Assembly (NCBI GenBank): GCA_032622095.1
Contig: CP136061.1
Span: forward strand, 117,252,754 to 117,316,753
From: Siphonodentalium dalli
Lineage: Eukaryota > Mollusca > Scaphopoda > Gadilida > Siphonodentaliidae
Direction: 5' to 3'
DNA length: 64,000 nt
This document shows positions 1,145 through 39,554 of the stretch, one piece after another (within the stretch, counting starts at the first letter, position 1; each line of letters opens with the position of its first letter). Below the pieces are notes generated by a model. The model was not told where the DNA came from. It saw nothing but the letters and a program-made list of their open reading frames with translations, and made no database searches. Position numbers and translations under genes: made by a program.

Positions 1145-1515
1145 CACTGAAAAAACATAAGTGTAGAAAATCTACACAAAAGAGTAGAATGGCTACTCTT
1201 TATTGGTAAAAGTTGATCCAATCCTTTAAAGAGTAGAAATAGAGTAAGAGTAAAAATTACTCTATTTGTGTAAGTGTGGCTACTCTTTCGTGGTGTATAA
1301 TTTTACACTTTCCCACACAATATTGTGTAGAAATGGGGTACACAAATGTGTAGAGATTGGTGTACACTGTAAGAGTAGTTATGTACACATAAAGTGTACT
1401 TACCATATCTACACTTTTATGAGTATATTTATTCACACAAATTCTACTACTCTTTTAAGTGTAGAAAAATACCCTTTTTGTGTACGATTGTGTACACTTT
1501 GATGAGTAGATGCAA
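1145..1515 (+). repeat. Left subterminal repeat field of the CACTA-like element
   Basis: About 370 bp made almost entirely of variants of GTGTAGAAA, GAGTAGAAA, ACTCTTT and GTGTACAC in both orientations, ending at a poly-C run (1520-1529). Such fields bind transposase in known CACTA elements. The same words recur at the other end of the block and hardly elsewhere in the window. Confidence 0.7.
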
Positions 1516-2560
1516 ATCACCCCCCCCCCCCATGGTACCCCATCCAACCCATTCATGGGAATGTGAATCATTGGGCAAGAGTGACAAAGACAACCATGGT
1601 CATACGGTTCAACTATATTATAATTACAGATACTTTCCCTGCAACAATCTGCCCCATTCATCACATAGGCAAATTAACAAAGGCTGTGGGTTTCATAGGA
1701 AAACAGGATAATCAATCCACGAGAAAACTGTATTGGTGATTCATTATATTTATTTCATATTGAACACAAATGTAATATAACAGTTATGCATTTGACATTT
1801 AGCATATACCATGCCTAGAATGGGCAGGATGCTGTGTATATTAAAACGTAATATGTATACATAGTCATTTGTGGTTACAATGAAATTCTGAATATAAAAA
1901 TAATGAGCGATTGTCTCACTCTTATTTTCTCACATGTGAACAGCTGATGTGAATAGCAATAAAACATTTCCAATAATAATGAGGTGTATAATTTGTCCAG
2001 TACAGTCTGGTCCAGTTATGAAAAAAGTGCCAAACCTCCAATTAATTGCAGCATGATATTTCTTAGCTAGAATAAGTACATTAACCCATGATAAACAACA
2101 TATTAAAAATAAAAAGGACCTACAAATGGGGAAATTGGTGAATATTGTGAAATAAATTTGTGAAAATGTGGTAAAATACTCGATTTATGGCTTTCAAGGT
2201 TGTTTATCATACATGTATAAGAAATTCCATATCAAAAGTCCTTACATTGTCATATCTGTTACGTAAATTTTACTATCCTGATTACAGAACAGAAAACCTT
2301 TTTCCATATGTATCAGTTAAGTATTTTTTAGTCATATATGCCTCTAAAATTGAGACTTCATTTCACAAGACTATTCCTAATATTTTAAATACTAGAGAGA
2401 AATGAAGGATTTTCCAGTCCTGTAACCAGGATAGTAAAATCTCCAAAATAGTTTTGATAATGGAAGGACTTGTTGATTTTAAAATGTTGATCAAAGTAGA
2501 CACCCCCTCCCCTGTCCCTGGTATAAGTTAAAGCTGTTTGGAAAAATAGTCTAGTCAGTT

Positions 2561-2991
2561 TTAAAGGTACTAAATCCGAACAGAGGGTCCCCATCTCAAC
2601 AGATTCCAACAACAACAATCCGATCAGAGGGTCCTATATTACTATTTCTTTGGCTTTGGCTGGCTTTGGGGGTAAAAAATATTTGATTCGAGTCGAGGAA
2701 CCCATCAAACAAAGCTCAGAGTTATTAGATATTGATTTTTGAAATTTGTTATTTACTCGAGATGAGTACTAATAATTGCCTTCAACTGCCGTAATCTGCT
2801 CGGGATGTGTACACCAAAATCTATTCAAACAGACAAGGATGGATAACTCTAAAATCAAGTGGTAATAAAATCGATATCTAACAAATCTGAGCTTTGATGG
2901 GTGACTTCCTCGACTCGAATCAAATATTTTTGACCCCCGAAGCCATTGAAATAGTAATTGAGAGGAGTTTTATCGGATTGAGTACCTTTAA
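2561..2991. mobile_element. TTAA-flanked MITE, family B copy 1
   Basis: Starts TTAAAGGTACTAAATCCG and ends CGGATTGAGTACCTTTAA, so AGGTACTCAATC-type inverted termini sit inside TTAA on both sides. Long inner arms (GATTCGAGTCGAGGAACC against its complement) make it fold back. TTAA duplications are typical of piggyBac and Kolobok elements. Noncoding. Confidence 0.75.
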
Positions 2992-3474
2992 GTACACTGG
3001 GGAAATTGATTCAGGTACATTCCGCTCTTTAAAATATTTACAGCTACTCACAAAAAGAGAAATGCTCTTCATTATTCTTGTTTGAATGACATAATACGTT
3101 GCTGTTTGTCAACTGCAGCATTTTCATTGGCTAAGAATCAAATATATGCATCGCAGGAAATGGGATAGTTTGCTGATGAACACCATTTTAATTCGCAGCA
3201 GGCAAAATCAAACTTCTTCCTTTTTGTTTATGATCCAAGATAGCCTTAGCCTTTCTCTTCCTATAACAAGTTTTATATAGTTTCCTGGGTATAAAATAAT
3301 ATGAATCAAGGACCCCTATCTGGAAAAGCTTCGATAAGTTATTATTGATTTAATTTAGAATTTTCTGGTATAATGTATATACATGAATCAATTTGGGACA
3401 TTTCATAGCTCGTGTTTGTTCCGTGCATAGCATGGGCTTAATTCTATCTGAAAAAATAGTATCGAAAAACATCA

Positions 3475-3637
3475 TTAACCCTTTCACGTCGTGAGCTGTG
3501 CTGGTACAGCATTAAAGTTCCTGTGCCAGTGCATTATCTTATATTATATTTGCGACTGTGAGCCTTGCATATATAAGAGAATGCTCTGGTTTACAAGGTC
3601 AAGGTAAATATTGTTAGGCCTATGTATTCTTTTTATG
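3475..3637. mobile_element. piggyBac-like MITE, left part, interrupted
   Basis: Begins TTAACCCTTTCACG and contains GTGCCAGTGCATT and TATATAAGAGAATGC, the diagnostic inner palindrome words of the copies at 16898 and 27281. It is cut by the mariner-like MITE at 3638. A GGCTCCTGATGGGAGACT remnant follows that MITE at about 3859. Confidence 0.5.
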
Positions 3638-3850
3638 CAGTAATGCTCTAAATAATCGACTTCTTAACCACAGCAGAATTATGGGTAACTTTTCAGGATT
3701 TAGTCGGAAATTTGGCTTGTTGCCATTCATTGGAAAGCTCTCCCCGAGAGCTTTCCGATGAATGGCAATAAGCCATATTTCCGACTAAATCCTGAAAAGT
3801 TACCCATAATTCTGCTGTGGTTAAGGGGTCGACTAATTAGAGCATTACTG
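3638..3850. mobile_element. Mariner-like fold-back MITE, copy 1
   Basis: A near-perfect hairpin. One arm is CAGTAATGCTCTAAATAATC... through ACCACAGCAGAATTATGGG to GGAAAGCTCTC; the other is its complement ending GAGCATTACTG. Five or more relatives occur in the window, most of them flanked by TA as in Tc1/mariner elements. This copy has TG on the left and TA on the right. Confidence 0.75.
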
Positions 3851-3969
3851 TATATACAAGGCTCCTGATGGGAGACTGGCATACATATTGGTACAATTGC
3901 TACGGGTGCGAGAGCAATCACTCCCGTCTCCTGGGAAGGACTGATCATCTCCCCTGTCTGAATGTTTCT

Positions 3970-5765
3970 TACTTTCACATGTAGTGGCCATTTAGTGTCA
4001 TTTTATCATTCAATATGGCTATGTGACTATGTGAAAAACTATCATTGGTGACAAGGAAGCATGTTTTTTCTTCGGCAGAGGCATTACAGTTCAGAATTTT
4101 TTTGTGTGTGGAAAATTGCTTAGTCTATCCAACACCCCCCCCCCCCCCCCCGGCCTGAATTTTTATTTACCTCAACATCTAATCCAATTAGTCTCATTTT
4201 ATGATTCACTATGACTGTGCAACTAAGAAAACTAATATTGGCATGTATTTTTTGTGAAATAGGCAATATTTCCAGAGAAAGTCCAGAGAATTTCTACCAC
4301 AGCATCTCATGACCAGTTAAGTCAGTCTCATTTTATCTTTCAATATGAATATGCGACTAAGTAAAACTATCAATGGCATCAAGGAAGCATGTTTTTTTCT
4401 GTGAAAGAGTCAATATTTAAAGTTTGGAGAATTTTCAATGAAAATTACCTTGTTTATCTTCCCCTCCCGCCTGAATTTTACCTCAATAGTTATTCTAATT
4501 TTATCATTCATATGACTATGCGACTAAAAAAAACTATTGTTGGCGACAAGGAAGCATGTATATTCTATTAAAGAGGTGCGGAGAATTTTCATTGAAAAAT
4601 ACATGAATTTTTCTTACCTTAACATGTAGTGGCAGGTTTATCTTCGGAAAAACCCATGTTTTTCTTCGGAAGAGGTAGATCATGCCATGACTCTCTACTC
4701 TGTCTTATTAATGCCCATAGAGATCATATTCCACTAATACGAAACCTTTGAACTTTTTGAAGTTTTGACAGGGGATATTATAAAGTCTAACAATAACGCG
4801 GGGAATATATTTCTCAGCTATTATCTGTTCCTTAATAATGTACAAGTTTCACAATGGGTGAATGTTCCAACTCAAAATTGCATGTTTTTCTATGACCTTT
4901 GTGACCCGATATCACAATAAACATTGAATTATTTACCCAGTAGAAATGCTATAATTGTCAGCAAAGCAAAGCAAAATCTCTCAAAAATCCGCTTTCAACA
5001 TGAAATTTTGAGTTGGGACCTTCACCTACAGTAAAGTGCATTAGTAAGGAACAGATAATAACTAAGAAATATATTCCCTGTGTTATTTTTTCGACTTTAT
5101 AAGGTTCCATGTCAAAACTACTTCAAAAAGTTCCAAGGTTTCGGACTGGTGGAATATGATCTCTACGGGCGTTAGCCAGAGTAGAGATTCATGGCATGAT
5201 CTACGGCAGAAGCTACATGTAGGTAATTTTTAATGAAAATAAGATATTGTAGTAAAAAAAAATTCAGGGGGTTGGGGTTGGCAAGACTTCAATTATTGGC
5301 CTTTTCACAGAAAATACATGTTCCTTGTTGCCAATGAGGGGGGATAGGGGATAAACTAGGAAATTTTCAATGAAAATTCTCCAAACTATAATTATTGCCT
5401 CTTTCACTGAAAATACATTGCCTATTTCACAGAAAATACATGCTTCCTTGTTGCCAATGATACTTTTTTCTTAGTCGCAAAGTCATATTGAATGATAAAA
5501 TGAGACTAACTGGCTGTTGGATGTTGAGGCAAAAACAAATTCAGGTGGGGGGGGGGGGGTGGGTGATAAACTAAGTAATTTGCCTCCTTGACAAAGAATA
5601 CTTGCTTTCTTGTCACCAATGATAGGTTTTTTCTTAGTCATATAGTCATATTGAATGATAAAATTAGTCTATCTGCCCATTAGTTGTTGAGGTATTAAAG
5701 AACAAATTCAGACGGGGGTTATGGGGGGGGATGCGTAGGCGGGAGATAAACTTTTACAACAGTAT
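3970..5765. repeat. 1.8-kb fold-back element with tandemly repeated arms
   Basis: The left half (3970-4690) repeats a unit containing CTATGTGACTA and GACAAGGAAGCATG about four times. The right half (5150-5765) carries the complementary words (CATGCTTCCTTGTTGCC, TAGTCATATTGAATGAT). The inner part also pairs: GATCATGCCATGACTC near 4678 against CATGGCATGATC near 5190, and TCATATTCCACTAATACG against GGTGGAATATGATC. The centre is near 4925. Poly-C and poly-G runs (about 4134 and 5546) mark matching arm positions. Noncoding. Confidence 0.6.
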
Positions 5766-6369
5766 AGAACGAAAACACTGGAAGCAAAGCAATTTTCGGT
5801 CTAGAACTCTAGATCTGTTTTAGACGGTGATTGTGTATCGCTTCACCATGCAGTCATTTTCAATAAAAATACATGAATAATAAAAAACCCTGAATTCAAC
5901 AGATGCCTATGAGTAACCACAGAAAATTCAGCTTTATAATTTCTTCATTCATTGTTTATTTTTTCCTGATTATGTTGTTTGATATGCAACAGCATTTTAA
6001 ATAAATAAACACTGAATGAAGAAACTCTAAAGTTGCGTTCAGACGAGAAAGTTGCATTGATATTGGATTAAAGAGAATAATACCGAGGCTCAGACAGATG
6101 GGATGCGTTCATTAACACACACACAACAGAGAGATTCTATTTTCAACGCAACAAAGCATAACGCATGTCTTATGACGTTTCTTGTTTTCAATCGATAAAA
6201 CATGGCAGCTGTTTTCGAATCGAAGGTAAATAAACTTGTATTTATGTCAATAAAGTGTTTATTTGTTTGGATTTGACATCATACAATCAATTTATTACAG
6301 ATATATTGATTTGCAATATTGGTTTTATTCCAATAGCACCTATCAAACTTATTAGCTGCAATAATATTA
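5766..6369. other. Noncoding stretch
   Basis: AT-rich, with no convincing codon pattern, repeat unit or terminal motif. Confidence 0.5.
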
Positions 6370-6648
6370 TTAAGGGCACGTATGGCCTTCGCGGTGGGTA
6401 TTGCTGTAAAACAGACATATTTTGTTCTTATACCAGTCATAAATATTGCGTAAATACATGTAGTATGTTATTGTTAAGTTTGTACGCTGGGTTATGTAAT
6501 CAGGTTCTGTAACATTTTTGGCTTTTGTTTACATAACAAAGCATATGAACTTGACCATAACATACTATTTACTCAATATTATTTCTGTTTTAGCGGATGT
6601 GACTATTTTAACAGCGATACCCACTGTGAAGGCCATCCGTGCCTTTAA
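6370..6648. mobile_element. TTAA-flanked MITE, GGGCACG family
   Basis: TTAAGGGCACGTATGGCC on the left mirrors GGCCATCCGTGCCTTTAA on the right, extending about 35 bp (CGGTGGGTATTGCTGT against ACAGCGATACCCACTG). A TTAA lies at each end. Noncoding. Confidence 0.65.
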
Positions 6649-6853
6649 TCACAAGCTCTGATTTATAATGTAAAGTATGTGTTTTTGTGAAAGGCTTAAT
6701 GTAGACAATGAATCATGTCAAAGCAACATACGGATCAATGTAATGGACTCATCTGAACACTCCTTTTCAGTTGGGCTCGCAATACCACCTGTTACAATAT
6801 CGATTTTACCTCTAAATTATAATCAAATATAGCAAATCCACTTTATATTAATC

Positions 6854-6999
6854 ACAGGAGCTTGGAACTTTATAAATAACTGCCAAAAATTATCAACATG
6901 CATCTGCCTGAAGATAATTTTTGGTGAACAATAGGTTGGCCATAAATAATCATAGGGCAATTTTTAAGGGAATTTGTTGATTAAGTTCCAAGCTCCTAT
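6854..6999. mobile_element. Small inverted-repeat element
   Basis: Arms ACAGGAGCTTGGAACTT and AAGTTCCAAGCTCCTAT enclose about 110 bp. No clear target duplication was seen. Confidence 0.5.
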
Positions 7000-7309
7000 G
7001 GATTTATATTACTCAATTTTAAATCTCACCAAAAATAGTAAATTGGCAAAATTTTGATTTAGGTCGGAATAGTTTTCACAAGAATAAAAAAATAATAATT
7101 GGGATTTACATGCAATCTCCAGATCAAAAGTTAGAGTTACCATTGTTTCCAGCCGTGACTGCATGTATGTCATATTGGAATTAACAGGGATGCTAAGTGC
7201 AGCAACTAAGGAGGCTTAACAGTTAACAGCGATTGGGCTAGGTAAAATAAATACCAGTTCCAAGCCAGATAAATATGTACTAGTATTGTTTTAAAAAAAT
7301 AGCGGTCAC

Positions 7310-8824
7310 ATGCTCATAGCCCGTTTATATATAACCATGGGTATATGCCAGATATAATCGTACAAAAAATATCGCTGTTCTTTTGACCGTGTATTTATCC
7401 ATGGTGCGTGTGCCTGCACATGGTTATCCGTAACCTGGTGCCCGGTGTTATTGCATTGAAAGGTAATCATGTTCGACTGGTGTTGTTAAGTTTAGTGATG
7501 AGATTAGCGGTTTCTATTTCTTGTCTGGTCATATTCACTGTTGGAACTTTTTTTGAAATAGACGCACTTTTTATACTAGAATTTGCGCAACAGGAGCGCA
7601 TGGAGGGAAATTGCACACCGAGTTGGTTTAAGGGTTTTTAGAAAAACTATTCATATATGATATAGAGAGGCCAACAGAACGATACCATGCAAATTTAAAA
7701 CTGAGAGAATAAAAGGCCGTACGGCCACAGTGTCCCCCGAAAAAGTGGCTTCATTGGGGCATCAGCTTGTCTGAAAAAAATAACAAGGACCCTAACTCCG
7801 ATACTAAATTTCAGAACAATCCAACCAGTGTACCTTGGAATGGTAGATAAACTATCATACTAAATTTGATTCAGATATGATCACACAAACTAAAGTTGTC
7901 ATCCGGAAACCAGAAATTGACAGGATTCTAAGTCGAAAAAGGGCCATAACTCTCGCAAACATGGGCCGAGTAAACACATATTCGAACTTGACCTGTATTT
8001 TGGTTGATAAACTCACATACCAAATTTGGTTCAGATATGACCACAAACTGAAGTTATCATCCGGAAACCAGAAAATTATAAGATTGTAAGTCGAAAAAGG
8101 GCCATAACTCTCGCAAAAATGGGCGGAGCAAACCCATATTCGAACTTAATCTGTATTTCAGTCTGATAAACTCACATACCAAATTTGATTCAGATATGAC
8201 CACACAAACTGAAGTTATCATCCGGAAACCAGAAAATTATAAGATTCTAAGTGGAAAAAGGGCCATAACTCTTGCAAAAATGGGCGGAGCAAACCCATAT
8301 TCGAACTTGACCTGTATTTTGGGGTGGCGCCAGGATATCCCCGACGCATGTGCTATACGATTCCCCCGATAAGGGGCGGGCTTTAGCTACTGAGTTGACC
8401 ATTACAGATCTCATCGATGTGGTTGGCTATCCCTCCCCAACAAAATTTAGTTCTCGTCTTCAGTGAACTCAAGACCGCGCTCTTAGCATGGGGTGCCAAG
8501 CAGGGACGTGCCGACAGGGGTGGTTATGCAGGGGTCCCACCCCCAAACTGTAGTCAAACCCAATGCAACATTAGTTGGAAAATTCACACCAAAATTAGTT
8601 TGAAATTGTTCTCGTAGTTTGATTTCCAACAATTTCTTAGTGACGAATTTGTTGTTTTTAGACCAAAATTTGCATATTTCCCTTTCATTTGAAAAATTTT
8701 GGATTGAAAATTGAAATGCCATCAGTTGCCAATTTTCAAATTTTCAAAATGTTTTCACATCGGGTCGAACCATCGTGTATTTATCGCATATACCCATGGT
8801 TATATATAAACGGGCTACGAGCAT
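7310..8824. mobile_element. 1.5-kb element with long terminal inverted repeats
   Basis: The left ATGCTCATAGCCCG followed by TTTATATATAACCATGGG is the inverse of the right end (CCCATGGTTATATATAAA then CGGGCTACGAGCAT), about 40 bp with few mismatches. The interior holds the ~140-bp tandem repeat at 7733-8325 and short open frames without recognisable domains. Superfamily not assigned. Confidence 0.55.
7733..8325 (+). repeat. Tandem repeat (~140 bp unit, about 4 copies)
   Basis: Units share AAAAGGGCCATAACTC, CATATTCGAACTTGACC, ACATACCAAATTTGG and GTTATCATCCGGAAACC. A second array of the same family lies at 26205-26545. Confidence 0.75.
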
Positions 8825-9238
8825 CTGATCGCATATTTTCTACACAATAAACCACTTTACTGTCACAATTGTGACATTTAATTAGTTTATATTGGGGAGT
8901 TTAGGTGAGTGGATAACAATGCTAAACCCCCCGATATAAAATGACATATACACAGGACTTCGTCGTAAACCAGCGGTATCCAAAACAATTTCCCTAGCTG
9001 GCTTATATGAAAGGAAACTTAGACTACACTTGACCACGCAATACGAGATATAAACTATACCTACAAGTCACAAAATAATGTAAATTATATTTTCATATGG
9101 ACGATGCTAAATCTGTCCATAAAATGCATGCAGTCATGAATATAGTCAGTCATAAAGTTCTAAAGCGTTGTCATCCTAAATTCCAGTTGACATCAATTAA
9201 TACTGGTAGTTGTTTCAACACTATAAATATGATGTCCC
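8825..9238. other. Noncoding stretch
   Basis: No gene, hairpin or tandem unit seen. Confidence 0.45.
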
Positions 9239-9361
9239 CAGCCTTCATAATTGGCTACGGCAATCAGCATTGACGAAGCAATTTGCTGAATCAAACTGGG
9301 CCATGGCATACTGTTGCCGTAGCGGATTGCCGAAGCCAAACAATCTGAATTAAGAGGGCTG
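9239..9361. mobile_element. Short MITE, CAGYCYTC family, copy 1
   Basis: CAGCCTTCATAATTGGC at the left and TGAATTAAGAGGGCTG at the right form inverted termini. The 6-bp word TGTCCC is repeated exactly on both flanks (9233-9238 and 9362-9367). The copy at 14513 also has a perfect 6-bp duplication. Confidence 0.7.
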
Positions 9362-9368
9362 TGTCCCT

Positions 9369-9564
9369 TTAACCCTTCCATGACATTAGATTCCTGAAAT
9401 TTTGCGAAACCCTGGGAGCCTCGATATATATTAGAGAATACATTGGCCTAGTAATATTTACCTTGACCTTGTAAAACAGTGAATTCTCTTATATATATAT
9501 ATATGCGAAACTCCCTACATGCTTTAATGTGGCACCAGTGCAGCTCCCGTCATGAAAGGGTTAA
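9369..9564. mobile_element. piggyBac-like MITE
   Basis: TTAACCCTTCCATGAC at one end and GTCATGAAAGGGTTAA at the other. The CCC/GGG termini directly inside TTAA are the piggyBac signature. Its right TTAA is also the left TTAA of the next element. Confidence 0.75.
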
Positions 9565-10048
9565 AGGTACTCAATCCGAACAGAGGGTCCCCATCTCAAC
9601 AGATTCCAACAACAACAATCCGATCAGAGGGTCTTATATTACTATTTCATTGGCTTTGGGGGTAAAAAATATTTGATTCGAGTCGAGGAACCCATCAAAC
9701 AAAGCTCAGAGTTATTAGATATTGATTTTTGAAATTTGTTAGTTTCTCGAGATGAGTACTAATAATTGCCGTCAGTTTCGTAACCTGCGCGAGATGTGTA
9801 CACCAAAACACAATTCAAACAGACAAGGATGGATAACTCTAAAATCAAGAGGTAATAATAACGCAATTTTGACTGAGTTCTGGGCCAGAAAGTATTCCCG
9901 ATTATGAAAAATAATAGATTTCTAAAATCGATATCTAACAAATCTGAGCTTTGATGGGTGACTTCCTCGACTCGAATCAAATATTTTTGACCCCCAAAGC
10001 CATTGAAATAGTAATTGAGAGGAGTTTTATCGGATTGAGTACCTTTAA
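9561..10048. mobile_element. TTAA-flanked MITE, family B copy 2
   Basis: TTAAAGGTACTCAATCCG ... CGGATTGAGTACCTTTAA; colinear with the copy at 2561 over nearly its full length, including GATTCGAGTCGAGGAACC. It shares TTAA 9561-9564 with the preceding piggyBac-like MITE. Confidence 0.8.
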
Positions 10049-10298
10049 GACATCAAAATGATCAAACTGTAATCACTGACCTTTATGGATTAGCTCGGGG
10101 ATCTGAACACCATACATGAACTAGATCATAATCTAAAAGTGATCTAAAAGGCATTGATTACAGTTCCTGTTATTTCCCTGCATATGTGAGGGCCACCACA
10201 ATCAATCATATCATAAGTGAGTGAAGACAAAGAAACTTGGTCAAGTAACATAATTAGCATGGGTGCATCTGGGAATAACTTTTTTGAGATATAAAAGA

Positions 10299-10407
10299 AC
10301 TTAATTAAGATTTTTGGCTTCGGCAAACCTTTGCCATGGCCCAGTTTGCTTCAGCAAATGGCTTAGGGTATTGCTGATTGACGTTGCCAATTATGAGGGC
10401 TGTTTAA
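10299..10407 (-). mobile_element. Short MITE, CAGYCYTC family, degraded copy
   Basis: On the minus strand it starts CAGCCCTCATAATTGGC and contains GGGCCATGGCAAAGG and GCCGAAGCC, as in the copies at 9239 and 14513. The other terminus has diverged. Confidence 0.5.
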
Positions 10408-10709
10408 AATATCAATGATGTATGTTTATATAATCAGACATCCTCTATATTCACACAATTGGCACCTGTAAGAATCAGTACATTTCGTCATACAGTTTAC
10501 CAGAACGGTTCCGAGGTTCATAAACTTCATAAAAAGCTATGAACCACCTACTTCATTTCAAGTCGCCCACGCTCGTTGCTTGATTGTCATGTCATTGTGA
10601 GACTGTGTTGTGTTGGAATTTGAACAATATGTTACTTAGTCGTTTTGGTAGTTTGAAAAGATGTTCCATGTTATTAATGTTCTATTAAAATGGACTGGTA
10701 TATGATTAT

Positions 10710-10850
10710 AAGGAATGACTTGAACATCGAGCGTGGTCAATTGTTTTGACCGGCAGACTAATTAAACAAAGTCTGTGTGAATCTCATTGTTTTTTAATTA
10801 CTCTGCTGATCAAAATCTGATGACCCCAATCGACATTCAAGTCATTTCTT
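10710..10850. repeat. Imperfect palindrome
   Basis: AAGGAATGACTTGAACATCG pairs with CGACATTCAAGTCATTTCTT. Inner arms (CAGACTAATTAAA and TTTAATTACTCTG) continue the pairing. Confidence 0.5.
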
Positions 10851-11100
10851 GAATAATTACAACTACTCTCGATTTGATTGAAATGCATGATTGGTCGAGA
10901 GGCTAGGGAATGATGATTCAATGATCTGATTTATCATTGTACTTTATATGTTGCAATGTATGAGACAGTTATACTTTAAGAACAATGGGCGAGTCTAACC
11001 TCCCGCATGACGTCACAGAATATGAGATTGCGCATAACGATTCCGGTAAACTTCAACTTTTTGCCAGACGGCAATATATTACTGTTAATGAGAAATAAAA

Positions 11101-11225
11101 TATTTTTTAATCGATATCTAATAACTCTGAGTTTTGATGGGTGGGTTAAATAAAATATTTTTTACCTCCGAAACCAATGGAATAGTAATAGTAATAGGGA
11201 TGTTTAATCAGATTATACATCTTTA
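11101..11225. mobile_element. Fragment of family B MITE
   Basis: ATCGATATCTAATAACTCTG, then TTTTGATGGGTGG and ATATTTTTTACC match one arm of the TTAA-flanked family B. The other arm is missing. Confidence 0.5.
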
Positions 11226-11867
11226 ATACCCCAATCTCTGTGTATACCAGATATGGCATAATATTTACAGCCATTTTCAAGTGAGTTTCCAGACTATATT
11301 TGGCAGTATGTGCCATTATCGTACACATGAGACCTGTGTTCCAAATTGAAACTGCTATAAGGGTGGCAAATACCAGCTGACAAAAGCAGGTGCTAACCAC
11401 ATGTTTTGGAAAAGTGACGAGAGGGCTCAGTTAATTGAAACAGGAAGAATAGGTTTTATAGAATATATCAATTGTGGTTTGGTTTTGAAATATAACTGAA
11501 GAAAACAGAGAACCGTAAAACTGCACATCACTACTTCATACCAATGATATTGATGTATGTCATTGGTCAGAGAATATTAGATGTTACCAAGGTATTTGCT
11601 TACATCGGGAATGATCAATATAACTTTAGATTCCTAACAAGTCAGGGGCCATTGCTTCAAATTTCACTCTCTGTGATGATAGCCATTAAGACGTTTTCAC
11701 ATTTAAATGTAAATAGTAGGCAAACAAGAAGTATTTTCTTGATCAAGTTGAGGTGTATTTTTTTCCTGAATATTTTGCTCGGTTGTTGTAAATTTTCTGG
11801 GATGGATTATTAGTAGATCAGTGAAAATTAAGATTTTTTTGTTGTAATTATAAGCCATCAAAATTGT

Positions 11868-12000
11868 TTTTCGATTGATCTATGAGCACATAGATGTATC
11901 AGTATAAGTAGAACAACATAATAGTATAATTCAGCTTTGCGGAAAATACAGTGTGTTTTTCATCTACTGATACATTGACACGCTCATATATCAATTGAAA
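11868..12000. repeat. Imperfect palindrome
   Basis: TTTTCGATTGATCTATGAGC pairs with GCTCATATATCAATTGAAA, and GATGTATCAGTA with TACTGATACATT. It lies just downstream of the gene-like fragment at 12025-13544. Confidence 0.45.
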
Positions 12001-12024
12001 GATGATGTTGATGGCATAAGAAGA

Positions 12025-12275
12025 CTACTCATGATGAATCATCATAGCTATTCTTCCAAAGCAGTGTATGTCAACACTGATATTGTTAGTCATAATAGCC
12101 ATTCTTCCATAGCCATGTCTATTCCTGTCTTCTCGAGCTAGTTGTGCCCGCTTCACTGACAGCTCACATGAAAGTTCCACAGGCTGCATCACACTTGTAT
12201 ACCATGGTACAATATTTATGTCATCTGTATGCTGCACATGTACTGGTACAGTTCTGGTGCCAGTGTCAGAGCATA
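12025..12275 (-). CDS. Putative exon B of the captured gene fragment
   Basis: A pyrimidine-rich acceptor (TTCTTTTCAGAG) ends before 12275. With that cut, the phase matches the donor of the exon at 13278-13544 and the frame stays open for 82 more codons to a stop at 12025. The sequence begins ICSDTGTRTVPVHVQHT, contains ELSCELSVKR, and ends in a short internal repeat (GYGRMAIM and CFGRIAMM). The two Cys and the alternating hydrophobic residues suggest a secreted beta-rich domain, but no family is recognised and cytokine-like assignments could not be supported. Confidence 0.35.
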
Positions 12276-13128
12276 CTCTGAAAAGAAATGCATAAAATGC
12301 TATTTTTAAGAAAAGTAATATTTAAAACGTACATTATTTATCAGGTAAATAGTTGAAATTTATACGGGAAATTAATTATAACGCCATGGTTAATTAAGTT
12401 TATGTTTAGCATCATCAATTTGTCTAATGTTGAAATGATTAGTCGATAGTGTTGAAATGACTAGGGTATTTCATATTGGATGGCCCCCAGCCGACACCTA
12501 CTATATATATAGAACGATCAAAATACCACACATGATTATCAAAGTATTCGCTTAAAAATCAAGGATCTGCCCATTTTAATGTGTTGGATATGCAATTTTT
12601 CACAGCAGTTTGTCATTATAAATTTATTAAAATGCATATTTATCATTATATTTATGGATGTTGACAGCCTATAGTGACAGGAAAGTATCATGAACATCAC
12701 TCATAGGATATAAAGCTGGGTTAAACTTCAAAGTTGAAGTTATTTGCATGTGCGATCCTGACAAAGTAATGGAAGAGTCGATTGAATTTTTTTATTTGTA
12801 TAGCATTTTTTTGCAGCACTGGGTAGATTTTGTATAGCACTCCCTACCAATACCCGTCATTTTATTTTAAATTGGATAGTAGAAATTGGAAATGGCATCC
12901 CAAATTGCGATGCAAATCCAGTTAAATCGAGCCCTGAACAGTCATAAATACTATGGAGAGACTTCGAAATAGCTTCCTAACTTCTGGCAGCACAAACTCG
13001 TATTTGATTACATGTCCATGTCAGTTCAAGGATTGATTGGGGGATGACATTCAGCGGTGTTACTCTATACCAAGCAGGGATCACATATAAGGGTAACACA
13101 TTTATAAACTTCTTTTATTCGGCGTATA

Positions 13129-13234
13129 CAGTAATGCTCTAATTTGGCGTACAGTAATGCTCTAAGTAATTCAGCGGGTACAGTAATGCTCTAAGTAATC
13201 GACTTCTTAACCACGATTACTTAGGGCATTACTG
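13129..13234. mobile_element. Mariner-like MITE, rearranged ends
   Basis: The terminus TACAGTAATGCTCTAA occurs three times in tandem at 13127, 13145 and 13169, followed by a short stem and the opposite end GGGCATTACTG with TA after it. Most of the arms are missing. Confidence 0.55.
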
Positions 13235-13277
13235 TAACTCTGCATCGGTTGCACTGCAGAAACAACACAAGTCTTAC

Positions 13278-13544
13278 TGGCTACGTTTCCAAGTTTGGTG
13301 TCGTAGTTTGGAATATCGCTAATACTTTGACATGTCATGTTTAGTTTTGCCTTAATCTTTTTACATGACGGATGACCAGGTGGACACACAAGGGATCCAC
13401 AGCTGTATTCAAACTCGGACAATAAGTATGCGTGCCTGTATGTTTCAAAATCGAAAGATTGCAAAGTAGCTACTCTTGGGATCCAAATAAGCATAATAGT
13501 ACCCGTATGTTTATTAATTTTTAGAAAATATGCCACCCTGTTAC
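13278..13544 (-). CDS. Putative exon A of a captured gene fragment
   Basis: Open on the minus strand for 88 codons. A CATACAG acceptor precedes 13544 and a strong donor (GCCA|GTAAGA) follows at 13278, so the exon enters and leaves in the same phase. The product has an N-terminal hydrophobic patch (GTIMLIWIPRVATL) and a Cys cluster (CGSLVCPPGHPSCKK, then NMTC). No family is recognised. The DNA immediately upstream in the gene's sense (13560-13920) clearly resembles 49140-49490, the start of intron 2 of the mucin-like gene, and the intron phase is the same. It may therefore be a divergent relative or a duplicated piece carried by the CACTA-like block. A mariner-like MITE remnant abuts its 3' side. 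Expression is unknown. Confidence 0.4.
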
Positions 13545-13559
13545 CTGTATGGCGTTTAT

Positions 13560-13920
13560 ATGGGTCTGTATCGGTCTATTTTAAAGTGATGTGAATCACT
13601 GCGGAAGAATGATCAAATAAAAAAGAGAATTATCTTGCTCAAAGTAGTTATTTTTACAAATATTATATCCAAATTGGCAACGCTCATCGTTATTCTTATA
13701 CATTAATTAATGACAGTTATTCTCGAAGGTGAAACCATTTTCATTAGTTTATCACAGATAGTTGCATTCCAATTTGAGGAGTAAATATTTACAATTGAGT
13801 GTAGTTCAAATGATGATTTCTATGGATATGTACGGTCGATTTTCTTGAAATTATCGGCTATGTTACTAATATGATACATTCCTCCTGTTGACATAGTGCC
13901 TGAATGCTAACTTATCGGTT
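13560..13920. repeat. Segment duplicated from or to the mucin-gene intron 2
   Basis: Runs colinear with 49160-49490. Shared blocks include ATCTTGCT(C/G)AAAGTAGT, ATTTTTACAAATATTA, AAATATTTACAATTGAG, TGTAGTTCA, GTACGGTCGATTT and GTGCCTGAAT(G/A)CTA. Divergence is moderate, with small indels. Confidence 0.75.
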
Positions 13921-14083
13921 TCATATACCAAAACAAGTACATAATTATTTATGTCTTTAAAATTGGGATCATCAGGCTGGCTATACTGCAGGCATATGGA
14001 GCTATCACTTATGTCAGGAAACTCCAATGTCAAGCGTATTTGAGAAATATATGGATAGAATGAAACAAGTGTGTGAACTGGTT

Positions 14084-14189
14084 AACGTTATTGAATGAGT
14101 TTGTTGTGACACGATGGTAAAACGAGACCCGTAGGTTCAAATTTTACCTCGCGACACAAGTTCATACAACAAACACTTGCAATAACGTT
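14084..14189. repeat. Imperfect palindrome
   Basis: AACGTTATTGAATGAGTTTG pairs with AACACTTGCAATAACGTT, with a shared inner TTGTTGT/ACAACAA core. Confidence 0.5.
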
Positions 14190-14512
14190 TTTTTTATGCT
14201 CACACAACTGTGTTGTTCTTTGTTTATTGCACACTCTGAAGATTGGAACTTGTAATATGCTCAAATTTAGGTTGATATTGTTGCATTAATTCTGAACAAT
14301 GTGTTCTTTATGCAGACTAACCTCATGATTTAGTGAAGAAATGTTTTGTTTAATTTAGTTGGTGTTGCAATGACATGGTTTGTATTGTCCTTTTTTATTG
14401 AAGGTTTTAAAATCTTCTGTATTTTGCTGTATTATGCAAAAATAAACAAAGTGTGCAATAAATATGATTTATTGTATAGAATTTCAGACGACTTACTTTC
14501 AAGTTCCATGTT

Positions 14513-14604
14513 CAGTCCTCATTATTGGCTATGGCAAAATGGGCCATGGCAAAGGGTTGCCGTAGCAGATTGCCGAAGCCAAACAATCTGAATTAAAAGG
14601 GCTG
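14513..14604. mobile_element. Short MITE, CAGYCYTC family, copy 2
   Basis: CAGTCCTCATTATTGGC ... TGAATTAAAAGGGCTG. CATGTT is repeated exactly on both flanks (14507-14512 and 14605-14610), confirming a 6-bp duplication for this family. Confidence 0.75.
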
Positions 14605-14959
14605 CATGTTGGAACTTGCTACCCTAGCCTGTACTATTATTCCGCACTGTACTCTTATTAATTTATCAGATTCAGAGCTTGAAATTATGAAAAATGTCCC
14701 ATGACAAATTTAATGCTGTGGTATGTTAGCAGGTCCAGAACTTTCCCAAATTTCTGTATATGCGTCAATCGGTGTGTATACATCTATGGGACTATAGTTT
14801 TGTTATGAAAGACATGGACCTATTTTTTTTGGTCAAATCAGATCTTTATTGATAAAAACCTACTGTGTAACTGACTGTGTAAGCAATTCAATTAAAAACA
14901 AGGGGTACACATCTAAGATGCTATGTCGAGTTTATTGGAAGTCAAAAAAAAAATTCTGC

Positions 14960-15560
14960 CAACAAGTTGGCAATAAGGCCCACACAAGGCCCAAAAAGTT
15001 GGACAAACCTGGTTTTGAACTCGTCCGAGATATTGTTGCAATAGACTCATATACCAAATATTGTTTAAATCAGTTAATATTTCATCGAGTTATCGCGGTA
15101 ACGGTGATAACATTGCTAAAAATAGACAAACTAAGACCCATAACTCCGCGAAAAAAATTCAGACAAACCTGGTTCTCGAACTTGTCCGAGATATTGTTGC
15201 AGGAGACTCATATCCCAAATATTGTTGAAATTGGTTAATATTTCATCGAGTCATCGCGCCAACAGTGATAAAATTGCTAAAAATAGACGAACTAAGACCC
15301 ATAACTCTGCGAAAAAAAATTCGGGACAAACCTGATTTTCGAACTCGTCCGAGATATTGTTGCAGGAGACTCATATCCCAAATATTGTTGAAATCGGTTA
15401 ATATTTCATCGAGTTATAGCGCTAACGGTGATAACATTGCTAAAAATAGACAAACTAAGACCCATAACTCCGGAAAAAAAATTCGGACAAACCTGGTTTT
15501 CGAACTCGTCTGATATATTTTTGCAAGAGTCTCATATTGGTTAATATTTGCGTGAGTTAT
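14960..15560 (+). repeat. Tandem repeat (~150 bp unit, about 4 copies)
   Basis: Units share GACAAACCTGGTTTTCGAAC, CGTCCGAGATATTGTTGC, ATATTTCATCGAGTTATCG and AGACCCATAACTC. Short open frames here are by-products of the repeat. Confidence 0.75.
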
Positions 15561-16897
15561 CGCGCTAACGGTGAAAAACTAGTCATCAAAGATGGATAAC
15601 TCTTGTCAAAAAGTTTGGATGTGACCCATTTTCTACGCACAGTAAATAGTCATTGGGAGCAACTCACATAAAAAAAAAAATTTGAATCCGTTAACACATG
15701 TCAAAGTTATAAGGCATTCTTTAGGTCCGTCCGCCCGCCGCCCGCCAACCGTCCCTCGTCAAACCATAAGTCGAGTTTTTGAAAAACTCGACTAATAAAA
15801 GGTCGCTGACCAAAATTTCCCCTAATGGTTTGAAGGATTTATGGGTTTCAAATGCCAATACTACATTCTGTCTTTAAATGTGTAAAAGTGTCGAGAAAGG
15901 GCCAATATATAAACTCGAAAATAAAAAAACATAAAAAAATAAGTCGAAAATTGCAATAACTCTGCCAAAATTACTCAAAAGTCGCAGGTGAGCAGGTTCT
16001 CATTCTGGTTGACATCGGTGAAGTTTAAAAAAAATTGACTGGAAAATGAAGGAATACAGGCTCGGACAAAGTTCTGGATGGACACACGGAGGGACACAAG
16101 GACAAGGGTCATTACTATATAGTCCTCCAATGGAATGTCGGAGGACAAAAATATGTCCTACCTGTTTTAAGCCAATCAATTATCAGTCTGTCCTTAACTG
16201 CTGTCTCTATCTGAAGATGATGTTAAGTACATCTTCTAAATCTGTAAATTAAGATATAACCACATTTTACCATATATTCAGGTCAGCTAACATATACATA
16301 TATTAAATTATTGGCTTTGACGCATAAAATTTCACCTTTCCTAATGTGCTTTGCCTCTAATTACATGTATGATTATATATGCACACTAAGCATATACCTC
16401 TATATAGAACTAAACAACCTATTGCAGAAATTTCGTTCAAAACTGAGGTGATATGTCATGTGTAGATTCTATCAATTAGTATATAGGTGGATAGATGTAT
16501 ATACACCAATTGGCATATATAAGTTATAATGCCGATTGGACTCATGGAGTATATGTATACAGCAAATGGGGAAATTGCTCCACGTGATAATGAGATAAAA
16601 TGTTTCCAAAACGGCATTTCTCTAGCCGCAATACGTAACTTTGTTAAAAGTTACGATGGTCCTGTAACTATCTGGATAGAGCCAAGGAAACCTTATTTTT
16701 AACAGAAACAAGAACTTTCCCAGATATCCTGTCTGTGATAAAGTGCTGCGATCCAGACAAATTTATAGTGCCCTAGTACTGTATATGAAAATGAGAGATT
16801 GGTATATAAACAGTAATATCAAGTGAGAATAATGATGAACTAATATAAGCAAATGTGGAATACTACTAGTAACTAGTAGTATATGCATCAAAATTAA
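15561..16897. other. Noncoding stretch
   Basis: Contains a short hairpin-forming stretch near 15760-15795 (CGAGTTTTTGAAAAACTCG) and AT-rich filler. No gene seen. Confidence 0.45.
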
Positions 16898-17146
16898 TTA
16901 ACCCTTTCATAACAATCGCTGGTGCAGCAGTAAACATCCAATGCCAGTGCATTCTCCTATATATACCAGTTTACCATAGGGAGCCAGGCATATTTAAGAG
17001 AATGCAAGGTCAAGGTAACTATTGATAGGCCAGTGTATTCTCTTACATATGTGAGGCTCCCAATGGGAGACTCGCTTATTTAAGAGAATGAATTGGCACA
17101 GGGTTTTTCGCAAAATTTTAGGAAACTCCAGTCATGAAAGGGTTAA
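16898..17146. mobile_element. piggyBac-like MITE
   Basis: TTAACCCTTTCATAAC ... CAGTCATGAAAGGGTTAA. Inner words TGCCAGTGCATTCTC and TTTAAGAGAATG form further hairpins. Confidence 0.75.
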
Positions 17147-17764
17147 GCAAGTACCTTACTCCTATTTAAATTCACGCAGTACTACTACCCATCGGCGGCG
17201 ATGAGCGAACATAATAATACGATTTGTGAGTTTATACCAAACAATCGGAAAAATAAGAGGGCTATTTAGATAGTTATTTGACAATTATATTTACATGTGG
17301 GCAAACAATCGAAACATATGTACATGTAAAGCGTCAAATCATGGATTGATCTTTGATGTTGATAACTTGCAATGCTTCTAAGAAATATATATTTGATTGT
17401 ATCAAAAGCAATAAAGTGAATCGCGAAATGTATTGATCATATTGTGGGTTTGTATTGTGAAAGATATTACAGAAGCTGCGAAACAATAGCACTAAACTGT
17501 TTGAATGATTTGTTCAATGAACGGTCACTTACAACTATCTAGAGACTTCAGGGACGGTACCCTCCCCTATATTCAGCGACCAGATGATCTCCAGTATATG
17601 TTTCATCACTGAAGTAGAGCACCTTGTACATGAACATGTAGCTGGATTGGAGATTGCTGTCTTGACCCTTCACACTTGCCCTCATGCCAGTTTGTTCCTC
17701 CTACAAAAGAGATCATAATTAATGTATTGCAATAATAACATCTTACGTGTACCGTTAACTGTTG

Positions 17765-17877
17765 TCAAGAGCTTTCCGATGAATGACAACAAGCCATATT
17801 TCCGACTAAATCCTGAAAAGTTACTGTTACCCATAATTCTGCTGCGGTTAAGGAGACCATTACTTTGGGCATAACTG
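17765..17877 (-). mobile_element. Mariner-like MITE, single arm
   Basis: Only one arm of the fold-back family is present: GAGCTTTCCGATGAATG through CCATAATTCTGCTGCGG to GGGCATAACTG, followed by TA. Confidence 0.6.
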
Positions 17878-18096
17878 TATATAATGCAAATCAATCCATA
17901 TAGACAATCGCATGGCAAATCAAGTTTCTAATTACTAGTATGGCTATTAATATAATGAATATACTAGTATGGGTTATTCTTAGCTAATAGTATATCATTG
18001 TATGTCATATTAGAGCTGACTCTGAAATAGTATGGAATCTAAAGAGGTTTGCCGAACGGTGCTTGACAGTGAGTTCGAGTGGGACTGAATATTGTG

Positions 18097-18948
18097 TAGG
18101 GGTGCGAGATATCACCGGTGCACTGGTGTATCGCGAATCAGAGTTCTACGATACATGCACCGGTTCCATAGCCAAAAAATTGTGCATCGCGATACACAAT
18201 TCTGTTCATCTATTACCGGTGTCCATTATTCGTTACGCTGGAGAATAAGAATTAAATACAACGGCATGCAAAGAAGCATGATAAAGTCATTCTACTTCAT
18301 AGCACCGATTAAATAGGTCAGCCACCTGTTCGTCGGTCATGCGCGTGGGCATTGTTGTTTTTGTGTAAAGTTTGATATACCATTGTCACCGTTGGCACAC
18401 AGAAGAGTTCGTTCATAGAAATGATGTCACCAAAAGGCTCAAAATGTACATCATGCTAATCATTTGTCGTTCATTGGAGTTGAACTGCATATTAGAGAAT
18501 TAAATCGTTCCGTTAACAGTCACCGATACCCAATTGACATAAACGTGTCTCATCGCGAGACTCGTAGTAAACCGCGTCAATACAGACAGCGTTCCGAACT
18601 TCCGACGTGGTATTTTTGAATTACTCCCCCTGGACTGTATTTAAATGAATTAAACAACAAACGTGGTTATGTTTTTGTACTTGAAAGTCGTGTAATCCCA
18701 TACGACCTTGGCCTTGTATAAAACATTCCAATGAACTGAAGTAGCTGGTACTGAAGGATTAATCAAATTAATGAACTATTAAATAATGACTATGATTGAA
18801 TATATGTTTTTTTTCAACCAATTCATGAATTCCATATGAAGGGCTGCATCCAGAAATACTAGGGTATCGTATCTAGATAAGTATTGTATCGCGACCGCAT
18901 ATCGCGATATGTATCGTATCGCGACACTGGTAGTACCTCCCACCCCTA
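18097..18948. mobile_element. hAT-like MITE (852 bp)
   Basis: The left TAGGGGTGCGAGATATCACC and the inverted right TTAGGGGTGGGAGGTA are related. The flanks are ATATTGTG and ATATTTTG, an 8-bp duplication with one change, the size used by hAT elements. Inner GTATCGCGA/TCGCGATA words repeat. No transposase. Confidence 0.65.
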
Positions 18949-19379
18949 ATATTTTGTGCAAACTTTAAAGCATATATATATTAATTAGTTTATAATAGAT
19001 AATTCATAAATACCTGTGAAAAATTCAACCAGATTCCTCAAGCCTTGATATTCCAACCACCATGAATCATCTGTGATCGTCCACTCCATTGTACAGACGT
19101 CATAAACGAGTCGAAATTTTGCATGGAAATGATGCAATTATTTGTAGACCAGAATATTGTTGTTTTTAAAAGATGCTTCAAAAATGGCACGCAGTCAGCA
19201 AAAAAAATAGATGTTCCACATTAACAATTTTGGATTTTAATACAGAATCTTGAATTATTTAAAAGCAGACTGTCCCCATGTTATCTGTAGAATTGTAGCT
19301 CATATATATCAAGACTAAACACGCTGAATGAATATTCTAGCTTCACAGACGACCATGATGATGCAAATGCTTGTGTATA

Positions 19380-19631
19380 CAGTAATGCCCTAATTAATCA
19401 ACTCCCTAACCACAGCAGAATTATGGGTAACTTTTCAGGATTTAGTCGGAAATATGGCTTGTTGCCATTCATCGGAAAGCTCTCCTAGAAATATGGCTTG
19501 TTGCCATTCATCAGAAAGCTCTCTGCGAGAGCTTTCCAATAAATAGCAACAAGCCATATTTCCGACTAAATCCTGAAAAGTTACCCATAATTCTGCTGTG
19601 GTTAGGGAGTCAATTAATTATGGCATTACTG
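19380..19631. mobile_element. Mariner-like fold-back MITE, copy
   Basis: Full hairpin CAGTAATGCCCTAATTAATC ... ATGGCATTACTG with TA on both sides. The loop carries an extra tandem copy of ATATGGCTTGTTGCC. Confidence 0.8.
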
Positions 19632-19633
19632 TA

Positions 19634-21331
19634 GTAGTGATTACCAGTCAACATAGAACATTACTTGACCCAGATAATGATGATTTAATTTTAAATTAAT
19701 ACGATATCCATTATTATGAAGATTTTAATTTTGATTACTTATTATATACTAGAGGTTCCAATTTCATCACTTTCACATAAATGCAGAAGTTATCACATTG
19801 TGACAATTGTATACCATTGTGAATTTTAAGAACCACTAAATTTGTTATTTTGTATTAAACTTAAACTGCCGGTATGGGCCTAAATGAATGGTCAACACTT
19901 GGGATTTGTTCGACTACATGTATATTTTATATCTATAGTTGCTCTATATATATAGTGAATTTATATGATGATGAAGATGATAAAGTGGAGACGATGGTGA
20001 AGATGAGTTTATAGATAAAAACAAAAGGATTCCAATATACTTTTATATTGCCAAGCTAAATTTTACATGTCTATGCTCACCATTATGGCATATCTGACAT
20101 CAATGAATCAAGATAATTATTTCATTGTGTCAATAGTTGCGACTGGATCTGGACACTATATTTTTGAGTCAGTCATATGACAACAAAGGGTGAGTTAATG
20201 AACCCCAAGCACACAAGTCCCTCACATAAAAGTCATATCTCTAACTGTATATATGATTACAAGTCTAAAATAATTCAGGAACAATCAAAGTAAACTGTTA
20301 GAAGTTTTTGACAAAATGTGAATGATATTTACGAGGATGTGCAATGATCTCTGTATGAGAACATATGAAACTAACCACAATTTTTTACCCATATATACTT
20401 AGTGTTGATTTGCGAAAATTCCCCCCTGTAATATTATTGAGCCCCCATACTATTATTTATTTTAAAGGAAATTTCACCCCTGTACTATTATTCCGCCCCT
20501 ACTATTATTTGGATCCCGAGAGTAGCATATACATTGTAACTGCTTGAAATTTAGCACCAGCTGTCAAAGCCACCTCGCCTTTTAACGATCGACATGAGGA
20601 TTTTTGGATCAATTCCAAGTCACCTCGCCATATCGCTTCATGACATGAGGATCTTTCGAGAGCTGTGCCTTGAGCAGTTTTAATATGAGATTGAGACACA
20701 AAAGTACTTTCAACTTTGAATCATCAGATCATGCAACTTGAAAGATCACGGGACCCCAATTTTAAATTTGCATGGTTGAATGAAGCTATTACTATTAGTC
20801 AAAATACATTGTTCTGAACAACAAATCTGGAAAAACAATTGCCATACAGCCTACAGGTACATGCGAGTTCACTTGTGAGCAAGTCACCCAATTTCGATGC
20901 ACATTTATTGATTCAAAATTATTTCTGGGTATTCATCTCTGAACAGACTGAATTTAAAACAACTAATACTGATGCCGTACGTCAGTTGTCACATTGACAT
21001 TGTGTAATATATTAATTATTTTGTCGGCAAACACGACGATGATGATGATGATGATGACATTGACTGACTGATGTTAGACGATAAACGATGATGATAAAAA
21101 AACTTTAAAATTCATGAAATCTCACGCCAAGGTGAAGGTCAATGAGGACTCCAGAGGGGTAATTTAAAAAATGGGAATATTTGAGCAACTAATACGGAAA
21201 TTACGATGTTCTGTTTAGTTACTTAGAAGTTAGATTTTCATCAAATTGTTAATAACATACTATCATACTATGATACTAGTAAAGATGATGATGTAAATAT
21301 TTCAAATCTAAAGTACTAGTAGTCATACGTA
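19634..21331. other. Noncoding stretch with small repeats
   Basis: Holds a GAT microsatellite (21039-21058) and a CCCCTGTACTATTATT repeat (20425-20515) that recurs at 33282-33380. No gene seen. Confidence 0.45.
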
Positions 21332-21936
21332 TTAAAGGGGTACTGTACCCAAGATGTTGTTGTTGGTTTCTATAATCCCCGAGTCGGAGAATAATGTAAC
21401 AACTTTTCAATTTTTTGAAAGTTTGTTGAGTACGAAGTATTGTTACGGATGGCAAATTTACCGGAATGCAAAAATACAAATTGTCGTTGTCGAGTAATTT
21501 TTGTAAAGTTTTCAACCAAATGAATCAAATAAACATTATATTATATGGTTAGTAGTCCCATATACTCATTTAAGTTAGTGTACCGTCACTAGTCAATGAA
21601 TGGCTTGGGTTTTCTCCCCGTATAAGCATAATGTTTCAAACGATCGTGTGTGCAATTGTTTTCCTAATCCGGTATCCCTCAATTATAATTTGATTACGTT
21701 TTGTACACGGAAATTCGAATTTTAAGAGACGCCATTTTATGGCTGGAGCCATAAAATCAATTTATATTAAATTATTAACTTTTAAATTATTAAATTTTAA
21801 GATAGCCTATTAAGTTAACCTGCGCGTTTACAGAATACATCTTCGACTCAAATTACTTATATTTCTATATAGTATCGATAATAGATCGTTGTTATCACCG
21901 GGAATTTATTGAAAATGGCGTACAGTACCCCTTTAA
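21332..21936. mobile_element. TTAA-flanked MITE, GGGGTACTGTAC family
   Basis: TTAAAGGGGTACTGTACCC on the left and GCGTACAGTACCCCTTTAA on the right. TTAA at both ends, about 600 bp of noncoding interior. Confidence 0.7.
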
Positions 21937-22556
21937 GTAATACTAATAGCAATATAATTTACCGTTAATTAATATGTTATAGTACTTGCAAGATCTTTCA
22001 ATGAAATTCCAATTTCCACATCTAAATGTCCTAAATGATATATCAATGATGAATGATAGTAAATAAAAAATCCGCCCTCGCTTCGGGATGAAGGACGTGT
22101 AGCTAATTTCACTGCCATTTTTCAGGCGGCGCTGGTTAGGAACATAAATTATAGTCCGGGGAAAATAATAAAATATATAGGCTAGATGATAATGGCATCA
22201 TGCATAATACTAGTCTATAGTAATCAAATGAAAATGATGTAAATTATTAATTTAATTATTCAAAATCTAAAGTAAAGTTGGCCTACCTAGTCAAGAATAG
22301 TAGCCTACGATTTATGTTGGTGTTTTCAATGAAATTTCACAACTTAATGAAAAATAATGAAGTCAAAACATTGCCGCGTTTCCGTTACCACGATTCCGAC
22401 ATGTGGACAGTCTGTAATTACATGAAAATTCCATGATTCCAATGGATAAAGAATAGTTTACTTTCCAAGCATTGAGACAAAATGGCGTCACGGTCGAAAA
22501 AATGACGCTGCGAAAAAATGACGTTGCACATCGGCACGTGATCGCTACATACGCCA

Positions 22557-22718
22557 CGTTACTCTTTATTTGAGTACTTATTAATCAATTGTACTCTTTT
22601 ATAGTGTAATTAGTTGTCGCGCGCCATACGTCTTGTGGCATTTCTACACAATGGATGTGTAAATACGATATCTACAAAATAATAGAGTACACGTTTCTAC
22701 TCTTTATTTATTTCCGTG
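22557..22718 (-). repeat. Right subterminal repeat field of the CACTA-like element
   Basis: Contains ACTCTTTAT, GTACTCTTTTA, TTTCTACACA, AGAGTACAC and TTCTACTCTTTAT, the inverted counterparts of the words at 1145-1515. It is shorter than the left field, about 160 bp. Confidence 0.65.
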
Positions 22719-22720
22719 TG

Positions 22721-23202: not shown

Positions 23203-23427
23203 CTCTATTGCATCATACAAGGGCCTTGTATAGAACATCTAGAGAACTGTATGTTAATACATGTTATACGATTTCGTTATCAGCTTACACATCTCCAGCA
23301 GTGACACTAATCAAGTGATGGACTGTATCATGACGGATACGGACAACATACAAGTTAATGACCCGTCTGAATGTGTTTCGCGGCACCATATTGGTGTAAA
23401 TAATGCACATAAACAGATTGTATAATC

Positions 23428-36474: not shown

Positions 36475-36606
36475 TTCTTCTGGACAGGTGCATGAACAGG
36501 CCACTGGCACTACATGTACATCATGCTTGTACCGGTACCACAAATTAAATTTTGTGACAATATTTTGGTTATGGCCAGATGGCCAGGTAGCTGAGGTACT
36601 GTTCAA

Positions 36607-39545: not shown

Positions 39546-39554
39546 AATGCAGAT

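Follow-up and report, generated by a model that had tools for sequence, protein, structure and literature searches.

CACTA/EnSpm transposons are characterized by CACTA/G tips, target site duplications of 2-3 bp and subterminal repeats; Tc1/mariner elements duplicate a TA dinucleotide, and Chapaev elements a 4-bp target site. Across the CACTA/Mirage/Chapaev/Transib clade, passages of one source describe mostly CA..TG termini and duplications of 2-5 bp, with a fungal lineage that uses TA (PMC12730594). For the animal TRC elements, the excerpted texts report 2-bp direct repeats in seven of 14 copies of SmTRC1 (PMC1636069) and likewise in Spongebob (PMC4298943). We analysed a window of 64,000 nucleotides from the scaphopod Siphonodentalium dalli (contig CP136061.1, positions 117,252,754 to 117,316,753), which contains a 21,574-bp block that is very probably a member of a family of giant, non-coding, cut-and-paste DNA transposons of CACTA-like (CMC-type) nature.

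The family resembles the animal CACTA/EnSpm elements (CMC/CMCT) in its inverted repeats, which are short and imperfect, and in its 2-bp duplication, and it has CAC...GTG tips as other EnSpm elements do. It differs in size and content, since animal CACTA elements are given in the excerpts as about 4.7-9.2 kb long, besides short non-autonomous ones (PMC1636069, PMC4298943), whereas the present family exceeds 20 kb and no transposase was detected in it; SmTRC1-type tips are moreover described there as CCC, and those of this family begin CACTG. The soybean element Tgmt* is similar in size (20.5 kb), in CACTA type and in its insertion inside a gene, but in the passages of its description it is a plant element with its own transposase gene (PMC2613891), and none was detected here. 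Enlarged En/Spm families of the red alga Chondrus reach a comparable 16-20 kb, although they carry 4-5 open reading frames (ORFs), against none detected in this family (PMC6431247). Large retrotransposon derivatives (LARDs) are also large units moved in trans; they are long terminal repeat (LTR) retroelements, whereas the element discussed here is a DNA element with terminal inverted repeats, and the material between their LTRs is stated in part of the source to exceed 10 kb only rarely (PMC6431247), compared with units of 20-29 kb in this family. No non-coding animal CACTA element above 20 kb was recognisable by title or start of abstract in the literature searched, which leaves the absence of such elements unproven. 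The size is unusually large for a mobile element seemingly dependent on the enzyme of another element. The family offers a test bed for the effect of size and subterminal repeats on mobilisation in trans, and shows how passenger DNA can spread in large blocks.

Empty site and interrupted host gene

The insertion could be delimited to the base by comparison with a duplicate that lacks it. The translation of the joined flanks gave 177 matches in the 2.23-Gb genome (contigs labelled C1, C3, C4, C6, C7, C8, C9 and so on), with 150 of 359 candidates scored and 150 of the matches listed. The best match was identical at 159 of 159 residues, uninterrupted, and lay on the opposite strand of the same contig about 111 kb away (C1:117142216-117142692). 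At the DNA level this empty site, matching from the window edge to 22968, showed one mismatch in 1,392 bp relative to the joined flanks and a single TG at the junction. Because a near-identical empty duplicate with a single TG exists, an exact and recent insertion of 21,574 bp with a 2-bp duplication is indicated. Judged from these alignments, the insertion would be younger than the duplication of the host flanks, unless renewed by gene conversion.

A first-pass annotation of this DNA had described a very large CACTA-like element occupying 1145-22720, with CAC...GTG ends of related inverted sequence and TG on both flanks. The tips and flanks are as it described, and the boundary needs a small correction: the element proper stops at 22718, and the last two bases are the second copy of the target duplication. 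Its sequence starts with CACTGAAAAAACATAAGTGTAGA and, read inwards from the other end, with CACGGAAATAAATAAAGAGTAGA, so that the tips are CACTG from 1145 and CCGTG up to 22718; the inverted match of 17 of 23 bases was equalled by two of 200,000 random window pairs. The word G[AT]GTAGA, counted on both strands, occurs nine times in the left 371 bp and twice in the right 160 bp, compared with four occurrences in the 21,043-bp middle of the element and nine in the remaining 42,426 bp of the window. Matching subterminal word fields had been claimed for both ends; the words are indeed concentrated in both, strongly in the left and weakly in the right.

Removal of 21,576 bp, a length divisible by three, rejoins the reading frame (QDKISV joined to YKTSDL), as would the removal of a phase-0 intron, and this is what favours regarding the block as an intron or a segmental insertion that merely resembles a transposon. 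Such a view is refuted by the duplicate without the insert, and is further opposed by the paired copies with their own 2-bp duplications elsewhere and by the paralogues: in 142 of the 150 listed joined-flank matches the junction (query positions 100-115) lies within one uninterrupted alignment, six shorter matches stop ahead of it, and the other two are the halves from the window itself, so that no intron at this place was seen among them. The host copy was, besides, already frameshifted, and we give this explanation next to no weight. Compared with an intact 538-aa paralogue, it shows a change of frame ahead of the junction and further ones near 22873 and 23123-23130. The change near 22873 is common to the host copy and its empty duplicate, and a meaningful in-frame junction was rejected on this account. 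Thus, the block is removable in frame as first noted, but since the host copy was already frameshifted the rejoining has no clear functional meaning.

The earlier description of the host as TRIM-like was not confirmed: Pfam gave an NHL match in 22858-23202 (E 1.4e-7), and the 538-aa paralogue gave weak propeller matches below the Pfam cut-off and neither RING nor B-box.

Genome-wide family and target sites

Both ends recur in the genome at high identity. The left end had 141 candidates, of which the best 40 were scored, all at 99-100%; the right end had 87, the best 40 scoring 97-100%, one of them partial. A pattern of the tips matched 113 places (57 and 56) compared with one (0 and 1) for the reversed control. 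When 100 of these 113 matches, with five variant tips set aside, were combined with 10 places from the end searches, 60 left and 45 right tips formed 38 paired elements among the matches listed, 37 of them 20.1-28.3 kb long and one of 39.6 kb. The two ends therefore do occur as pairs, and none of the 38 pairs of the giant's own tips is shorter than 20.1 kb. For four left tips otherwise without a partner, a right end of a second type lies 22.2-28.7 kb away; one of these ends matches only in part (139 of 174 bases). A 2.9-kb interior probe had 12,623 candidates; the best 40 included 23 full-length matches at 97-100% as well as partial copies and relatives at 76-93%. The sequences support a family that is young and multicopy.

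The flanks were read for 30 of the 38 pairs, and 27 of these showed a 2-bp duplication (22 TA, three TG, one AG and one CA), which was absent in three. Agreement over 3 bp was found in none of the 30, and over 4 bp, the length typical of Chapaev, in one (TATA/TATA), which does not fit Chapaev. The pairs with a non-TA left dinucleotide are the telling cases, and the duplication matches in five of these six. Two copies at C9:63.0 Mb were rejected as separate insertions, their shared flanks denoting a duplication.

The predominance of TA raises the question of whether the mover is a transposase of another superfamily, Tc1/mariner or PIF/Harbinger-like, that targets this dinucleotide. The five duplications reading TG, AG or CA do not follow the Tc1/mariner rule, and the CAC...GTG tips and clustered subterminal words also speak against such a mover. 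TA targets are, moreover, described in part of one source for a fungal lineage within the CACTA/Mirage/Chapaev/Transib clade itself (PMC12730594). We consider this alternative improbable.

Some ends of the family are found in other arrangements. Four left tips of the same orientation lie 60-69 kb apart at C4:46.418-46.611 Mb, without right tips among the matches listed, and are likely a tandem duplication of a truncated copy. Right-end relatives at 79-86% identity are repeatedly spaced at C1:200.58-200.88 Mb and C6:89.94-89.97 Mb, the three on C6 recurring every 14.6 kb, and are possibly tandem arrays containing such ends.

Coding capacity and source of the transposase

No coding sequence was detected in the element. 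Its longest ORF (146 aa) lies partly within a 161-bp tandem repeat. Seventy ORFs reach 60 aa, and the Pfam scan covered 48 of them, ORFs below 60 aa being left out along with the other 22 (five tandem-repeat ORFs, seven more of the 60 listed and 10 unlisted); it gave no match at the curated cut-off, the strongest weak match having E 0.013. A hidden Markov model built from ten CACTA transposases of the same genome reached a best E of 8.5 against the element, and Rfam gave no match in window 1000-23000. Comparison between lineages of nonsynonymous (dN) and synonymous (dS) change in 37 test windows gave a median dN/dS of 0.73, with no clear coding constraint; the few low values (lowest 0.11) rest on few changes. 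Over 100 open windows that overlap in frame and strand, summed dN was 0.030 and dS 0.032, with a lowest p of 0.056 before correction. The non-autonomous character proposed at first is accordingly supported within the reach of these tests, the substitution tests being weak in the right outer part.

An autonomous giant, with a transposase divided into many short exons that standard models miss, would suit the size of 21-28 kb, the persistence of the giant form across lineages and the lack of a partner found outside; the excerpt on Tgmt* attributes a transposase to a 20.5-kb CACTA element (PMC2613891). The short ORFs, the lack of a Pfam match at cut-off among those scanned and the lack of a significant synonymous excess all argue against it, and we regard it as unlikely.

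The genome itself holds CACTA transposases, with 78 PF02992 and five PF18759 matches, some in long open frames. One type, of 909 aa, has 12 copies with 97-100% identity in their surroundings. Since long-frame PF02992 genes occur, including these near-identical copies, the CACTA enzyme class is present and has recently spread. An autonomous relative with the same termini, which the first-pass annotation had anticipated, was not found through the PF02992/PF18759 scans, the variant-tip loci, a second tip pattern or the surroundings of the 909-aa copies. The giant's tip pattern did not occur near these copies in 100 of the 113 places, those listed; similarity among the copies continues beyond both queried stretches on their outer sides, which leaves that element's own tips outside the sequence compared. 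Seventeen PF02992 loci of 7-10 kb lacked the word cluster, their own tips not being located. The second tip pattern gave four matches, compared with none in its control, two of them being right tips of short relatives of the giant. An automatic inverted-repeat match at locus L005 ended inside the ORF there and was dropped.

Because the searches yielded no transposase gene bearing these tips, membership in CACTA is supported, short of proof, by the tips (CACTG on the left, CACGG inwards on the right), by the duplications, which are of 2 bp in 27 of the 30 pairs read and of 3 bp in none, and by the subterminal words, and in these respects the earlier assignment fits. Several observations weigh against a giant moved in trans by a CACTA enzyme. 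The word field of the right end is thin, with only two words, and 22 left and seven right tips stayed unpaired among the matches listed. A preference for TA targets does not by itself point to CACTA, and with TA so frequent, flanks taken from different pairs agree in 536 of 870 mismatched comparisons. All 83 PF02992/PF18759 matches fall outside the 38 pairs, at a distance of 1.08 Mb or more. The substitution tests have low power in the right outer part of the element, and a multi-exon transposase of an unfamiliar kind could, chiefly there, have gone undetected.

With these points counted, a non-coding CACTA-like element mobilised in trans is still the explanation we favour. A CACTA-type transposase supplied by another element would bind the repeat words of the ends, excise the whole unit and reinsert it at 2-bp targets, most often TA. 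On this model the interior is inert passenger DNA, enlarged by nested insertions within source copies, and its segments may have been exchanged between copies by recombination. A more tentative possibility, to which we attach a small probability, is that the interior aids movement or survival through its sequence or length, as RNA, as an enhancer-like region, by spacing the ends or by shielding; it is raised by the persistence of giants across lineages about 80% identical in the centre, by their recent spread and by the lack of pairs below 20.1 kb.

In the region C7:18.6-26.0 Mb, paralogues of the host gene form a large cluster, and many of them have an open frame of 520-567 aa. The same region contains 12 PF02992 matches of near-equal scores, in frames of 462-482 aa that include one read-through TAG, a pattern that co-amplification of a CACTA transposase gene with the host gene family might produce.

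Subfamilies, internal structure and neighbouring sequences

The window copy (window type, A) and the C6 copy are very similar, differing at 113 positions in 20,301 alignment columns of three high-scoring segment pairs (HSPs), 116 gap columns apart. A second type (B) is represented by a 24.7-kb copy at C1:258 Mb. Its identity to the window copy is about 89-98% over the left 5 kb; most of the right 7.4 kb reaches about 94-99%, with a single piece of 259 columns at 86%, whereas the pieces that can be aligned across the centre (5918-14872) reach only about 78-82%, nearby tandem-repeat pieces being at 85-87%; the comparison rests mainly on HSPs, as the MAFFT profile misaligns patches. An older copy at C3:33.7 Mb with the same start tip is 86-89% identical to the window copy in the left part, and in the centre most values are 89-94%. 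No right end of this older copy turned up in the 36 kb fetched, and it is a complete giant only putatively.

The left end of the window copy is nearer to B than to the old copy (97.6 vs 88.7% in the first pieces) and its centre nearer to the old copy than to B, which makes the window type a mosaic. On this basis, giant forms seem to be older than the divergence of A and B and to have swapped segments, and relatives at 86-94% and about 80% identity support the view that the giant form is old. The first-pass annotation missed the size and youth of the family, its long history as a giant and its mosaic structure.

Two short relatives, of 911 bp (C8:8637263-8638173) and 1,037 bp (C9:132848039-132849075), are 93% identical to the giant in the left end and about 80-85% in stretch 22258-22546, and have tips of the giant's kind next to duplications of TG and TA. 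Beyond the tip, their last ~170 bp align poorly with those of the giant. These relatives fit mobilisation in trans.

Growth by nested insertion, as first proposed, can be seen directly for one 597-bp insert, which is flanked by a TTAA duplication (21332-21335 and 21933-21936); for the remainder it would follow from the 5,334 of 21,574 bp that recur elsewhere in the window or within the element. The features of the locus are given in Table 1.

Table 1. Coordinates of the element, its parts and the interrupted host gene copy in the window.
Feature	Position	Strand	Remarks
Giant non-coding CACTA-like DNA transposon (very probable)	1145..22718	+	21,574 bp; exact empty site; 38 paired copies genome-wide
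Target site duplication, left copy TG	1143..1144		Single TG in empty duplicate
Target site duplication, right copy TG	22719..22720		Single TG in empty duplicate
Left terminus	1145..1515	+	9 subterminal words
Right terminus	22258..22718	+	Tip CACGG inwards; searched with 22400-22720
Left part of interrupted host gene copy	380..1144	+	Aligns to intact 538-aa paralogue up to residue 370
Right part of host gene copy	22721..23224	+	Frame changes near 22873 and 23123-23130
Nested 597-bp element	21336..21932		Inverted repeats AGGGGTACTGTAC/GTACAGTACCCCT; without counterpart in C6 copy
161-bp tandem array, 3 copies	7841..8322		
161-bp tandem array, 3.4 copies	14993..15537		C6 copy has extra sequence here
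Central segment differing between subfamilies A and B	5918..14872		~78-82% identical where alignable

Other repeats occur in the window outside the element. Just downstream of the broken gene, 23594-24262 holds an array of inverted and direct ACCCAGGTGTACC... units whose periods include 64 and 26. Two long tandem arrays extend over 37207-39557 and 41572-44318; the spacing of self-matches suggests periods of close to 45 and 65 bp. The minus strand at 35950-36627 and 58535-59362 carries ORFs that, by eye, resemble fragments of proteins of the non-LTR retrotransposon reverse transcriptase type.

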